Shown here: positions 20,420 through 58,378 of the stretch, piece by piece
Layout of the letters: each line of letters starts with the position of its first letter
Position numbering within the stretch: the stretch's first letter is position 1
From: Flavobacterium ranwuense
GTDB taxonomy: Bacteria; Bacteroidota; Bacteroidia; Flavobacteriales; Flavobacteriaceae
Assembly (NCBI RefSeq): GCF_004349315.1
Contig: NZ_SMLH01000001.1
Span: forward strand, 1 to 64,000
Reading direction: 5' to 3'
Length of the DNA: 64,000 nucleotides
Position numbers and translations under genes: made by a program
Notes under the pieces: generated by a model
What the model was told of the DNA's origin: nothing
The model's input: the letters and a program-made list of their open reading frames with translations, nothing else
Database searches by the model: none

Positions 20420-20452
20420 GAATACAAATCATAAGTCATCCCGAAATTGTTT

Positions 20453-20540
20453 TGCGTGAGGGATGGAAGCGGCATCCTTTATTTTCTTTCTTTAAGAAAA
20501 TAAAGATACAGCGTATAGCCCGACCCTTGGGGCACGCCCA
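20453..20540 (+). repeat. Flavobacterial structured intergenic repeat, copy B
   Basis: Begins gcgtgagggatggaagcgg. The centre can fold as a long A/T hairpin around tttctttctttaagaaa. It ends acagcgtatagcccgacc followed by cttggggcacgccc. The arrangement resembles the copies at 383 and 40621. It lies between convergent genes, just before the queA terminator. Confidence 0.65.
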
Positions 20541-36763: not shown

Positions 36764-39445
36764 TTAATCTGCTATATTTGGGTTCAACCATTTCATGGCT
36801 ACTTCTGTCGAAACACTTCTTCGTTTGGCGTAATCGATGACTTGGTCTTCTTTTATTTTCCCAAGACCAAAATACTTACTTTCTGGATTTCCAAAATAAT
36901 AACCCGAAACCGAAGAAGCGGGCCACATCGCCATACTTTCCGTTAAGGTCACTCCAATTTCTTGTTCTACATTCAGTAATTTCCAAATGGTAGGTTTTTC
37001 TAAATGGTCTGGACAAGCTGGATAACCCGGTGCCGGACGAATTCCTTTGTACTCTTCGGCAATCATTGCCTCGGTACTCATATTTTCATCTGACGAATAT
37101 CCCCAAATTTCTTTACGGATTTTCTCGTGTAAATATTCGGCGAAAGCTTCTGCAAAACGATCCGCCAATGCTTTGACCATAATCGAATTGTAATCGTCTA
37201 AATCTCTTTCGAATTCAGCCGCCCATTCATCAACACCAAAACCGGTAGTTACACAAAACGCACCCATATAATCGGTTTTACCGCTGTCTTTCGGAGCAAT
37301 AAAATCAGACAAGGCAATATTTGGAGCTCCTTTCGTTTTTTGTGATTGCTGACGCAACGTCAAGAATTTCTCTAATACTTTTCCGCTTTCGTCACTTAAT
37401 TCGATATCATCATCATTGACTTGATTCGCTGGAAAAATCCCGTAAATCCCTTTGGCAGTTAACTTCTTTTCTCTCAAAATCACTTCTAACATTTCTTGCG
37501 CATCTGCAAAAACTGACGTTGCTTGTTCTCCTACTACCTCATCCGTTAAAATAGCCGGGTATTTTCCGAACAATTCCCATGTTCTAAAAAATGGGGTCCA
37601 GTCAATATACGGAACCAAAACATCCAAATCGACTTCGATGGTTTGTTCTCCAATTATATTTGGTTTTACAGGAGTAAAATTCTCCCAATCCAATTGCAAT
37701 TTATTTTTACGAGCTTGCTCAATGGTCAAGAAATTTTTGTCGCGCGAACGGTTCAAAAACGTCTCTCTAAACGCATCGTATTCTGCTCGAATGTCGCTTG
37801 CGTATATTTTTTTATCCTTGTTCAATAAACTTCCAGCAACCGTTACGGCTCTCGAAGCATCATTAACGTGAATAACCGTTTCTCTATATTGTGGCGCAAT
37901 TTTAACGGCTGTATGTGCACGCGAAGTCGTTGCTCCTCCAATCATGATTGGGATTTTAAGTCCTCTTTTATCCAATTCCTTGGCGAGATAAACCATTTCG
38001 TCTAGTGACGGCGTGATCAATCCGCTCAACCCAATAATATCTACGTTGTGTTCTATGGCCGCTGCAATAATTTTTTCGGGAGGCACCATTACGCCCAAAT
38101 CTACAATCTCATAATTATTACACGCCAATACTACCGAAACAATATTTTTACCAATATCGTGTACATCGCCTTTTACGGTTGCCATCAGGATTTTTCCATT
38201 TCCTTGCTTGTCACCTGCTTGTTTGCTAGCTTCTATGTAAGGCAACAAATAGGCTACGGCTTTTTTCATAACTCGTGCTGATTTTACTACTTGTGGCAAA
38301 AACATTTTACCGGAACCAAATAAATCACCCACAACATTCATTCCTGTCATTAAGTTGATTTCGATAACTTCGATGGGTTTTGTGGCTGCCAATCGAGCTT
38401 CTTCAACATCTAGTTCTATAAAGGCATCAACACCTTTTACAAGGGAATGCGTAATTCGTTCTTGAACGGTACCCGAACGCCATTCTTGAACCGCTTTTTC
38501 ATTGCTCTTTACATCTCCTTTTACATTTTCTGCAAAGTCCAATAATCTTTCCGTGGCATCATCACGACGGTTTAGAATTACATCTTCAACATGTTCTAAT
38601 AGATCTTTTGGAATTTCGTCATAAATAGAAAGCATTTCCGGATTCACGATACCCATAGTCATACCATGTTGAATCGCATGATATAAAAACACCGAGTGCA
38701 TCGCTTCCCGTACCGTGTCATTTCCTCTAAACGAAAACGAAACATTACTTACACCTCCACTAATATGTGCATGCGGAAGATTTTCCCTAACCCATTTAGT
38801 CCCTCTAAAGAAATCTAATGCATTCAGGCGGTGTTCTTCCATTCCTGTCGCAACTGGAAATATATTCAAATCGAAAATAATATCCTGCGGTGGAAAACCA
38901 ACTTTATTCACCAAAATATCATACGACCGTTGGCAAATTTCTACCCGGCGTTCGTAATTATCAGCTTGTCCCGTTTCATCAAAAGCCATAATAATTGCCG
39001 CAGCACCATAGCGCTTAATCAATTTGGCGTGATGAATAAATTGTTCTTCGCCTTCCTTCAAAGAAATTGAGTTTACGACACTCTTTCCTTGCACTACTTT
39101 TAGACCCGCTTCGATAATATCCCATTTCGAGCTATCAATCATGATGGGAACTCTGGAAATATCTGGTTCTGCGGCAATTAAATTTAGGAATTTTGTCATG
39201 GCATATTCGCCATCCAGCATTCCTTCATCCATATTAATATCGATAATTTGTGCGCCACCTTCCACTTGCTCTTTAGCTATGCTGAGTGCTTCTTCGTATT
39301 TTTCTTCCTTGATTAATCGAAGGAATTTTCTAGAACCTGTTACATTCGTTCGTTCGCCAATGTTAACGAAAACGCTGTTAGGCGTAATTATTAAAGGTTC
39401 TAATCCCGATAATACAAGGTTTCTTCTTTTCTCTGCGTGTGCCAT
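36764..39445 (-). CDS. metH: Cobalamin-dependent methionine synthase, folate, cobalamin and activation modules
   Basis: 893 residues without the homocysteine module. Pterin domain: [20 protein letters not shown] near 25-44 and MDEGMLDGE near 72-80. The cobalamin-binding domain has [17 protein letters not shown] near 425-441, whose His ligates cobalt. The SAM-binding reactivation domain has [15 protein letters not shown] near 806-820 and [18 protein letters not shown] near 850-867. The separate gene just upstream (103 bp) supplies the homocysteine-binding part. The split form is usual in Bacteroidetes. Confidence 0.94.
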
Positions 39446-39548: not shown

Positions 39549-40550
39549 CTACATTGTTGCTGTTGATACTCTAGGTTTATACTCCTTTGCTATATCAGCA
39601 ATCAACTTGATATGTTCTGGTGTTGTTCCGCAACAACCGCCTATGATATTTACTAAATTATCGTCTAAATATTCTTTGATAAAGGCCTGCATTTGCTCCG
39701 GCGTTTCATCATACTCTCCAAATGCGTTGGGCAATCCTGCATTAGGATGTGCCGATACATTGAATGACGTATTATGCGCCAAGGTTTGTAGGTACGGTTT
39801 CAACAAATCGGCTCCCAAAGCACAATTAAACCCTACGCTCAACAACGGAATGTGCGAAACCGAAACCAAAAAAGCTTCTACAGTTTGACCCGAAAGTGTT
39901 CTCCCTGACGCATCCGTAATCGTTCCAGAAACCATGATTGGAATATCGATATTGCGTTCGTCTTTGACTTCTTCTATCGCGAAAAGGGCAGCTTTGGCGT
40001 TTAAAGTGTCGAAAATAGTTTCGACCAATAATAAATCACAGCCACCATCCATTAAAGCTTCCACTTGTTGTTTGTAAGCAATTCGTAAATCATCGAAAGT
40101 TACGGCTCGGTAACCTGGATCGTTTACGTCTGGTGACATGCTCGCCGTTCTGTTTGTTGGGCCTATTGAACCTGCCACAAAACGAGGCTTGTCTGGATTT
40201 TTTGCTGTAAATTCATCGGCTACTTCACGGGCAATTCTTGCCGATTCGTAGTTGAGTTCGTAAACATATTCTTCCAGATAATAATCGGCCATACCGATGG
40301 TGGTTCCAGAAAAAGTATTGGTTTCAACGATATCTGCTCCCGCTTCAAAATAGGCGGCGTGAACCGCTTTGATGGCTTGCGGTTGCGTGAGTGACAATAA
40401 ATCGTTATTCCCTTTTAAGGAATGCGGAAAATCTTTGAAACGCTCTCCTCGAAAATCTTCTTCGGAGAAATTGTAACGCTGTAACATGGTTCCCATTGCT
40501 CCATCGAGAATGAGTATGTTTTTTTTGATGGCTTCTTGAATACTTGACAT
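39549..40550 (-). CDS. metH: Homocysteine S-methyltransferase module of split MetH
   Basis: 333 residues equal to the N-terminal module of E. coli MetH. It shows [24 protein letters not shown] near 15-38, [15 protein letters not shown] near 75-89, [16 protein letters not shown] near 127-142 and the zinc cysteines in GFNCALG near 239-245 and [11 protein letters not shown] near 305-315. It binds zinc and homocysteine. First gene after the SAM-I riboswitch; about 285 bases of leader lie between riboswitch and start codon. Confidence 0.94.
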
Positions 40551-40620
40551 TTTTATTTTTTTAATTGTTGTGTTCTAATGGTTAAAATAAAACCAAAAAA
40601 TCACAAATTTTTCCTCTTTA

Positions 40621-40752
40621 GTCCCGATTACTTCACATTGCTTCCATTTTTCATAGGAGTTCAGTGAACTACGTTTGAAGTGGAAATCCTTTTTGTTTTT
40701 TTTCTTTAAAAAACAAAAAGATTGCAACGTAAAGCGGGAACTCTATTGGCAA
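40621..40752 (+). repeat. Flavobacterial structured intergenic repeat, copy C
   Basis: It opens gtcccgattactt and closes aaagcgggaac. In the middle, gaagtggaaatcc is followed by a long stem, ctttttgttttt with aaaaaacaaaaag around 40689-40721. The word pattern resembles copy B. It lies inside the metH 5' leader, between the SAM-I riboswitch and the start codon. Confidence 0.55.
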
Positions 40753-40835
40753 AAATGCGCCAATTGTTCGCTCTAAAAAAAATATCGATATGTTGTCAAG
40801 AAAAGGTTTGAGAAATACTAAGTGAGTATTCGTGT

Positions 40836-40951
40836 GTTATCTATCTTAGATACTGAAACTGGTTCTGTATAAAGTAGAATGTAGCACCTTCTTTAAAGAT
40901 AAAGGGTTGCTAAGGTTTCATTGGGTCTTTCCCTCCGCCTTTCGTGATAAC
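40836..40951 (-). ncRNA. SAM-I (S-box) riboswitch upstream of metH-metF
   Basis: Read on the minus strand it starts gttatcacgaaaggcggaggg, has gacccaatgaaacc and ttagcaaccc, then aaggtgctacattct, and closes with gataac. That is the S-box order of P1, the GA-rich internal loop, kink-turn region and the GGTGCTA junction. P1 pairs gttatc with gataac. No classic terminator follows directly, so the switching mechanism is unclear. It should reduce metH and metF when SAM is plentiful. Confidence 0.92.
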
Positions 40952-40974
40952 TTTCAATAAATATATGAACAGTG

Positions 40975-55744: not shown

Positions 55745-55818
55745 ATCTTTTATGATTTTTGATTTGTGTCTGGAAATATTAGAAAGAAAGCTAGAAGTGA
55801 ACTAGAAGAATTCTTTGT

Positions 55819-55939
55819 GTTATCTTTCCTTTAGATTCTGAAATAATTCAGAATAAAGGTAGAATGCAGCACCTTCTTCGATAAATCGAAGGGTTGCTAA
55901 GGCTTCATCGGGTCTAATCCCTCTGCCTTTCTTTATAAC
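55819..55939 (-). ncRNA. SAM-I (S-box) riboswitch upstream of metX-thrA operon
   Basis: On the minus strand: gttataaagaaaggcagaggg, gacccgatgaagcc, ttagcaaccc, aaggtgctgcattctacc, an extended P4 (cctttattctgaa with ttcagaatctaaagg), then gataac closing P1. All core S-box blocks are in order. No obvious terminator follows before metX, so the platform may act on translation or on a terminator I cannot see. Confidence 0.93.
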
Positions 55940-55968
55940 ATTTCAATACGTTTTTGAACTTAAAGGCA

Positions 55969-56824: not shown

Positions 56825-56927
56825 TAAATTTTGAAAAAAAACACAAAGAAAAACGAACCCCACACTCTCTTTATATATTTATATAAGCAGATGAAAAGAT
56901 TTATCAGCAAAAAAAAGTTAAGATTAA

Positions 56928-56957
56928 TTTGCAATTCAAAATGGTTTCATACATTTG
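56928..56957 (+). promoter_or_regulatory. Promoter of metK
   Basis: TTTG at 56928-56931, 18 bp, then TACATTTG at 56950-56957. Transcription would start near 56964, right before the riboswitch-like structure. Confidence 0.8.
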
Positions 56958-56968
56958 CACCCGAATAC

Positions 56969-57063
56969 AAGAGGAAAAATTTGAACTGATTGCAACCTCT
57001 TCATAATGAAATCAATTCATTATGAATACTGAAAATTTTTCAGTAGAAAAAATGCTAAAGCAG
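56969..57063 (+). ncRNA. SAM-II-like riboswitch candidate upstream of metK
   Basis: A P1 stem aagagg (56969-56974) with cctctt (56996-57001) encloses aaaaatttgaactgattgca, which keeps the ATTTG and TTGCA blocks of the SAM-II loop. Downstream comes gctaaagcag (57054-57063), with the conserved GCTAAA; cag can pair back with ctg of the loop to make the pseudoknot. Between them sit two extra hairpins, tcataatgaa/ttcattatga and actgaaaa/ttttcagt, a large insertion. A competing pair ctaaag (57055-57060) / ctttag (57072-57077) could be the switch. Not scored by a covariance model. Confidence 0.65.
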
Positions 57064-57127
57064 AAACTCTTCTTTAGTCCTTTTCAGCAATTATTTTTTC
57101 TCGCTTAATTTTAAAATAATAATTATT

Positions 57128-58378
57128 ATGGCCTATTTATTTACGTCAGAATCTGTAAGCGAAGGACATCCAGACAAAATTGCAGATCAAATTTCGGATG
57201 CATTAATTGATAATTTTTTGGCATTTGATGCTGACTCAAAAGTAGCTTGCGAAACTTTAGTGACTACTGGCCAGGTAATTTTGGCTGGTGAAGTAAAATC
57301 AAATACCTATTTAGACGTACAACAAATCGCTCGTGACGTAATCAGAAAAATTGGTTACACAAAAAGCGAATACATGTTTGAAGCCAATTCTTGTGGAATT
57401 CTTTCTGCTATTCACGAACAATCTGCTGATATCAATCAAGGAGTTGACAGAGCAAATCCTGAAGAACAAGGTGCTGGTGACCAAGGAATGATGTTTGGTT
57501 ATGCTACAAATGAAACAGAAAATTATATGCCTTTGGCACTTGATTTATCTCATAAATTATTACAGGAATTAGCTGTTTTAAGACGTGAAAATAACGAAAT
57601 TACGTATTTGCGTCCTGATGCTAAATCTCAAGTAACTTTAGAATATAGTGATGACAATAAGCCAACTCGTATTGATGCTATTGTAATCTCAACACAACAT
57701 GATGATTTTGACGAAGAAGCAACAATGCTTGCAAAAATCAAAAAAGACATCGTTGAAATTTTGATTCCAAGGATTATTGCTAAAAACCCTGCGCATGCTC
57801 ATTTATTCAACGATGCAATCCAATACCATATCAATCCAACAGGGAAATTCGTAATTGGAGGACCACACGGAGATACTGGATTGACAGGAAGAAAAATCAT
57901 TGTAGATACCTACGGTGGAAAAGGTGCTCACGGTGGTGGTGCATTCTCTGGAAAAGATCCAAGTAAAGTAGACCGAAGTGCTGCTTATGCTACACGTCAC
58001 ATTGCTAAAAATTTAGTTGCAGCGGGTGTTGCTGACGAGATTTTAGTACAGGTTTCGTATGCAATTGGTGTTGCTAAACCAATGGGTATTTTTATCGATA
58101 CATACGGAACTTCAAAAGTGAATTTGACCAATGGTGAAATTGCCAAAAAAGTAGAAGCTATTTTTGATATGCGTCCTTACTTTATCGAACAACGTTTAAA
58201 ATTAAGGAACCCAATCTATAGCGAAACTGCTGCTTACGGCCACATGGGTCGTACACCAGAAACAGTTACTAAAACTTTTTCTGCTCCAGGTGGAAACGAA
58301 AAAACAGTTACTGTTGAATTGTTTACTTGGGAAAAATTAGATTTTGTAGAGCAAGTTAAAACAGCATTTGGATTGTAA
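57128..58378 (+). CDS. metK: Methionine adenosyltransferase (SAM synthetase)
   Basis: 416 residues. [18 protein letters not shown] near 11-28, [12 protein letters not shown] near 115-126, [21 protein letters not shown] near 243-263 and [19 protein letters not shown] near 267-285 are the MetK signatures. It makes SAM from methionine and ATP, the ligand of the riboswitches in this window. About 160 bases of leader with a SAM-II-like element precede it. Confidence 0.97.

Follow-up and report, generated by a model that had tools for sequence, protein, structure and literature searches.

A SAM-II aptamer with inserted hairpins before metK of Flavobacterium ranwuense and a predicted anti-aptamer strand common to SAM-II and SAM-I leaders of Bacteroidota

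Introduction

Which riboswitch precedes metK, the SAM synthetase gene of Flavobacterium ranwuense, and how could it switch a gene whose leader shows neither a Shine–Dalgarno (SD) sequence nor a terminator? We addressed this question in a window of 64,000 nt (positions 1 to 64,000, forward strand, of contig NZ_SMLH01000001.1, assembly GCF_004349315.1); all coordinates refer to this window. The initial annotation had placed a SAM-II-like element before metK and SAM-I elements before metH and a metX-like gene, and had regarded this combination as unusual, noting that SAM-II was described mainly in alphaproteobacteria.

Corbino 2005 reported SAM-II in the Bacteroides group (PMC1273637), and RF01726 appears in Weinberg 2010 under ‘SAM-II long loops, Bacteroidetes, marine’ (PMC2864571); SAM-II in Bacteroidetes is thus already published. 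Bacteroidetes are reported to be without SD sequences (PMC6847099), and we found no settled account of riboswitch action in a phylum with SD-less mRNAs.

Materials and Methods

Rfam covariance models were run with cmscan; the E-value given for RF01726 (Rfam name ‘SAM-II long loop’) was computed for the whole window. From 295 loci, 241 leaders were extracted by pattern, while 54 loci gave none (some without SAM-II, others missed by the pattern). After removal of 11 leaders (no plausible metK start or a short leader) and three duplicates, 227 were kept, with RF01726 upstream of metK. From these, 77 representatives were chosen whose leaders are under 62% alike; they include L141 and L154, with a wrongly placed aptamer start, and L251, with a shifted one. 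For SAM-I, 60 regions were fetched and 5 dropped because the aptamer core was not found. In the set of 40 SAM-I leaders the first 90 nt past the aptamer were used, even into the gene; in the larger set the region ended at the start codon. The metK tree (196 rows) is weak, with 96 of 193 inner branches open.

Results

The metK leader carries an RF01726 aptamer

The SAM-II model RF01726 matches 56965–57068 (+) with 46.2 bits, above its gathering cut-off of 44 (E 1.2e-5), in agreement with the SAM-II-like element that the initial annotation had seen before metK. The match spans the full model (1–60), with 44 bases inserted after P1 and ahead of the A-rich strand that precedes GCTAAA, and it ends 59 nt before the metK ATG. 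Same-genus relatives without the insertion mostly score 57–75 bits, so the low score in the window goes with the insertion. SAM-V, a class also suggested for scoring, gave no match in the window at gathering thresholds. By covariance model, the metK leader therefore holds a SAM-II aptamer with predicted SAM binding, a member of a known family in a known host group. The features of the locus are as follows.

56950–56957 (+): predicted metK promoter −7 box, TACATTTG (sequence; TAnnTTTG in 70/77 representative leaders)
56965–57068 (+): SAM-II aptamer with insertion, RF01726 (cmscan, 46.2 bits)
56970–56974 (+): P1 5′ strand AGAGG, partner 56996–57000 (cmscan; P1 variants in 77 representatives)
56986–56988 (+): pseudoknot 5′ strand CTG, partner 57061–57063 (invariant in 56 relatives, variable elsewhere)
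56996–57000 (+): P1 3′ strand CCTCT, partner 56970–56974 (cmscan; P1 variants in 77 representatives)
57001–57025 (+): inserted hairpin A (555/560 cells paired in 56 leaders)
57027–57045 (+): inserted hairpin B (430/443 cells paired in 56 leaders)
57054–57063 (+): GCTAAAG block and pseudoknot 3′ strand CAG (cmscan)
57055–57077 (+): hairpin CTAAAG...CTTTAG, predicted rival of the GCTAAA block in the SAM-free state (fold; relatives)
57087–57102 (+): predicted anti-aptamer strand GCAATTATTTTTTCTC, complement of 56971–56980 and 56989–56993 (complementarity, swap and fold tests)
57128–58378 (+): metK, SAM synthetase, 416 aa (NCBIfam TIGR01034, 514.6 bits)

P1, the predicted CTG/CAG pseudoknot and GCTAAA lie where they had been read from the sequence. 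The good promoter noted just before the aptamer also finds a match, as the TACATTTG box fits TAnnTTTG, the sigma-A consensus of F. psychrophilum (PMC9723704). Of the 77 dissimilar leaders, 70 have a box of this kind, a median of 22 nt ahead of the conserved TTTG; from its position the aptamer is predicted to lie at the mRNA 5′ end.

Compensatory change is seen in P1, which occurs as GAGG/CCTC (48 of the 77 representatives) and as GTGG/CCAC (24 of the 77). Both P1 and the pseudoknot are invariant among the 56 closest leaders with two hairpins. The predicted pseudoknot strands read CTG/CAG in 47 of the 77; the other forms vary, as compared without in-register alignment. The covariation proposed among metK leaders was found for P1 and for the inserted hairpins (below).

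Two hairpins inserted in L3

Loop L3 is 12–16 nt long in 115 of the 241 extracted leaders and 55–63 nt, with two hairpins, in the group of the window. These hairpins, placed between P1 and GCTAAA as first described, are conserved in 56 relatives of the same type, with covariation strong for B and weaker for A. Two-sided changes affect four of eight pairs in hairpin B, and none of 300 shuffles pairs as well; for hairpin A the counts are one of 10 pairs and 5 of 300 shuffles. Judged by these alignments, both hairpins are real, B being well supported by compensatory changes and A less so.

The two-hairpin insert marks one Flavobacterium group. Its distribution takes four changes on the metK tree (47.6 with shuffled labels) and is compatible with one origin. 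Other lineages have different, mostly hairpin-shaped inserts of ∼10–60 nt at the same point of L3; insertion versus none takes 30 changes on the tree (65 when shuffled), and well-supported branches alone force five. The varied inserts and the tree changes indicate that L3 has accepted insertions repeatedly at a single site. The idea that the inserted hairpins are a repeated palindromic element is not supported in the genome of the window, which has 8 hairpin-B-like sites against 6 for the reversed pattern. An excess of such sites is larger in some other genomes (16 versus 2 in G007).

SAM-II and SAM-I occur together in most relatives

RF01726 was detected in 241 of 249 genomes drawn from the genus (209 of 210 among complete, clean ones), in 96 of 100 family genomes taken one per genus and in 21 of 148 genomes drawn from the phylum. 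A set of 80 named metK loci, taken from Bacteroidota and other groups, includes 51 with the match in the leader region of metK, among them loci of Flavobacterium, Polaribacter, Winogradskyella, Mesonia, Sphingobacterium, Bacteroides, Parabacteroides, Tannerella and Porphyromonas. With the genus and family counts and the Bacteroidetes listing of 2010 (PMC2864571), SAM-II can no longer be called odd for this lineage.

The SAM-I elements of the window were also recovered, with RF00162 matching before both genes.

55817–55941 (−): SAM-I aptamer, RF00162, before a MetX-family gene (cmscan)
40834–40953 (−): SAM-I aptamer, RF00162, before metH (cmscan)

The MetX-like protein scores 180 bits, under the equivalog cut-off of 500, and is therefore assigned by family membership only. 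Both classes are present in 42 of 60 relatives searched for both and in 46 of 60 family genomes; co-occurrence is thus the rule among relatives, and the view that two SAM riboswitch classes in one genome are unusual does not survive these counts. A survey of 2007 reports no species with both SAM-I and SAM-II (PMC2258182).

Other arrangements of SAM riboswitches also occur. Three small genomes (G275, G323 and G352) have two SAM-II copies each, and in five genomes (G046, G056, G058, G049 and G002) SAM-II and SAM-I form a divergent pair on opposite strands, 66–190 nt apart. In two MAGs metK stands behind SAM-I/IV (RF01725) instead of SAM-II: L106 (Bacteroidetes, 2827–2932) and L126 (Emticicia, 2822–2926).

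The metH gene of the window is split in two. The part at 36764–39445 (−), 893 aa, passes methionine-synthase cut-offs; the N-terminal part at 39549–40550 (−), 333 aa, matches the model in its first quarter only. Two Flavo-1 RNAs (RF01705) were found, at 20449–20529 (+) and 40663–40745 (+), the latter antisense, in the stretch of the long metH leader that separates SAM-I from the gene. The exact 13-mer GAGGAAAAATTTG, identical to the start of the SAM-II aptamer, occurs in the metH leader at 40604–40616 (−); 0.8 sites with at most one mismatch are expected in the window. A second SAM-II in this leader was rejected, as no SAM-II match appeared even at E up to 10.

The leader before metK is complementary to the aptamer 5′ half

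In the MFE fold of 56962–57170, the aptamer 5′ half (GAGGAAAAAT plus ATTGC) pairs with the strand GCAATTATTTTTTCTC at 57087–57102, and the helix encloses hairpins A and B and the CTAAAG/CTTTAG hairpin. The whole fold has a z of −3.2, the inserted hairpins contributing. The outer stem of the CTAAAG/CTTTAG hairpin is invariant in 56 relatives, and 104 of 112 inner pairs are kept.

Across the 77 representatives, complementarity between the aptamer 5′ half and the leader is in excess, with a mean z of −2.09 and p < 0.05 in 41. Controls gave z −0.15 for the reversed aptamer (2/77), −0.19 for the upstream region (5/77), 0.0 for codons 2–11 (2/77) and −0.28 for codons 11–20 (4/77). Over all 227 leaders the mean z is −2.06, with p < 0.05 in 125, so that only about half of the leaders are significant singly; named Bacteroidales-type loci alone have a mean z of −1.7 (8 of 19 pass). 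The window's own duplex, taken alone, falls short of significance (z −1.3, p 0.12).

When aptamers and leaders were swapped between loci, the energy rose from −16.1 kcal/mol for cognate pairs to −13.4, and none of 20,000 permutations was as low, in a test that ignores shared ancestry. The corresponding counts per 20,000 permutations were 3260 (upstream region), 334 (P1 3′ strand together with L3) and 215 (codons 2–13); for codons 2–20, 1097 of 10,000 permutations were as low (z −1.2). The signals for the P1 3′ strand plus L3 and for codons 2–13 are weak, at the 1–2% level, and the coding signal is gone over codons 2–20.

In L010, L012, L025, L270 and L287 both sides are unlike those of the window yet complementary to each other, as AGATTTGGC/GCCAAATCT in L010, GGATTTGGC/GCCAAGTCC in L025 and CTTGC/GCAAG in L270. 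The strand lies a median of 25 nt from the start codon (5th percentile 13 nt, 95th percentile 60 nt). Fold ensembles pair it mainly with the aptamer in 59 of the 77 leaders (193 of 227). Among the 56 two-hairpin leaders, where the aptamer side is nearly invariant, no compensatory change was found in the anti-aptamer helix; 24 C-to-T changes opposite G keep pairing, and breaks affect 22 of 543 outer and 7 of 280 inner cells. RNAalifold on these near relatives prefers the aptamer stem over the anti-aptamer helix. From the folding models, we predict that the strand competes with aptamer folding.

Many SAM-I leaders carry a similar strand

In 40 SAM-I leaders, the aptamer 5′ strand compared with 90 nt downstream gave a mean z of −3.3 (26/40), with controls between −0.32 and 0.11 (2, 1 and 3 of 40). 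The figures for 95 leaders are z −2.84 with 53 significant; for 47 dissimilar representatives, mean z −2.63 with p < 0.05 in 25 and, for the reversed strand, z −0.42 (4/47). None of 20,000 permutations in the swap test was as low. By gene, complementarity is found in 18 of 25 metH and 9 of 13 metX leaders, while the metZ leaders among the representatives show no anti-aptamer signal (0/5). The two SAM-I leaders of the window have z −4.7 (MetX-family gene) and z −0.9 (metH, not significant). In L308 a near-unbroken helix of 28 pairs could form.

In some SAM-I leaders the strand also fits the start-codon region (e.g. TGACATTTT/AAAATGTCA), namely L305, L332 and L333 (metH) and L319 and L326 (metZ); the fit is not significant overall.

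How the strand could act on metK

One way to read the locus is as an ordinary SAM-II riboswitch, whose aptamer alone regulates through a hidden SD sequence or an intrinsic terminator as in alphaproteobacteria. The aptamer family and the gene context, with RF01726 upstream of a SAM/methionine gene (metK, TIGR01034, 514.6 bits), are the usual ones, and Sinorhizobium meliloti is described as using the SD sequence GAGG at metA and a predicted terminator at metZ (PMC9373788). The aptamer match at metK, however, ends 59 nt before the ATG; GAGG or GGAGG occurs in none of the last 20 nt of the 77 dissimilar leaders (AGGA in three, GGAG in one), and 56900–57400 holds no terminator-like site, which makes such an arrangement very unlikely here. 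We give as little credit to the idea that a purine-rich aptamer beside a pyrimidine-rich, unstructured leader yields duplexes as a by-product, without any switch. The leaders are indeed T-rich, C exceeds G in 73 of the 77, and the duplex of the window is weak alone; but the reversed aptamer, equal in composition, is without signal, and cognate pairs beat swapped ones by the energies given above.

A translational clamp, in which the strand freed by SAM would pair with the early codons of metK or with its start region, so that the start codon is closed in a loop, deserves more attention, although we consider it unlikely. In F. johnsoniae, structure around the start is reported to tune initiation (PMC6847099), some SAM-I metH leaders carry TGACATTTT complementary to AAAATGTCA at the start codon, and the aptamer-less fold of the window pairs TCGCTTA (57101–57107) with coding TAAGCGA and GCAATT (57087–57092) with coding AATTGC. 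Shuffled sequences, though, fold as well as this one (z 0.34, 118/200). Over the 77 leaders, pairing with the start region has z −0.28 (7/77), and the signal for codons 2–13 did not hold over codons 2–20. Freed-strand pairing with metK codons or start, striking by eye and in the window fold, was thus set aside as unsupported across species. The same was done for anti-start pairing in SAM-I metH and metZ leaders, suggestive in single cases: metH with an ATGTC start has z −1.17 (2/12), other genes z −0.65 (2/21), and the anti-start swap z −0.68 (4857/20,000). In the window, moreover, the metH start lies 283 nt from its SAM-I aptamer.

The leader itself has little structure past the aptamer, its consensus folds being nearly empty in three groups of relatives. 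Start-region accessibility is 0.56 versus 0.54 in the two modelled states. In C over G the metK leader ties for third to sixth among 33 leaders of the window, which is only mildly unusual. Since masking of coding or start regions is unsupported, the leader is near-empty in consensus folds and C exceeds G, we favour early Rho-type termination of transcription over the clamp as the last step, tentatively and on weak evidence; that it is the actual step seems rather doubtful.

Discussion

We lean towards a reading in which a SAM-II aptamer at the predicted mRNA 5′ end is joined to a competing anti-aptamer strand, and SAM releases this strand and lowers metK expression. At low SAM, 56971–56980 and 56989–56993 would pair with 57087–57102, and the CTAAAG hairpin would hide the pseudoknot strand; hairpins A and B, inside the junction, are compatible with both states. 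With SAM bound, P1 and the pseudoknot should form, as expected for the class, leaving the strand at 57087–57102 free. The freed strand would lower metK expression, an OFF direction suggested by feedback logic and by the class, and the free, nearly unstructured leader with C over G may then undergo early Rho-type termination.

The predicted anti-aptamer platform, common to SAM-I, would be a new variant; among the titles, abstract openings and article passages covered by the literature search, we found no description of such a strand for Bacteroidota SAM-II or SAM-I. It is quite possible, though we would not count on it, that SAM-II and SAM-I of Bacteroidota converged on one platform, in which a pyrimidine-rich strand replaces the aptamer 3′ half and captures the 5′ half at low SAM until SAM frees it, with L3 of SAM-II as a free docking site where lineages repeatedly inserted hairpins without loss of the switch. 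With such a strand, bacteria without the usual ribosome-binding signal in their metK leaders would have another route to switch the gene. Being common to two unrelated SAM classes, it is a concrete, mutable element testable in F. johnsoniae, and it could guide the search for expression platforms, or for riboswitches not yet known, in this phylum.

Among the closest known systems, the published SAM-II long loops (RF01726; PMC2864571) share with the locus a full-length model match in a Bacteroidetes leader, at metK in the window; the group of the window differs by its long L3 with two hairpins, against 12–16 nt in 115 of 241 leaders. Alphaproteobacterial SAM-II (RF00521), as described in Corbino 2005 (PMC1273637), has a P1 stem like that of the window, a pseudoknot such as is predicted there and a reported promoter just before P1; many of its members have putative intrinsic terminators, whereas none was found at metK of the window. 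SAM-II at metA and metZ of S. meliloti (Scheuer 2022, PMC9373788) likewise serves methionine metabolism genes, according to that account by means of an SD sequence (metA) or, by prediction, a terminator (metZ); the metK leader of the window shows neither.

The remaining comparison is with SAM-I (RF00162) of this genome and of its family, where many leaders also hold a strand complementary to the aptamer 5′ half (25 of 47). In classical SAM-I switches, the antiterminator employs the 3′ side of P1. The likeness to the metK leader is in the strand, while the SAM-I aptamer fold is unrelated to that of SAM-II.
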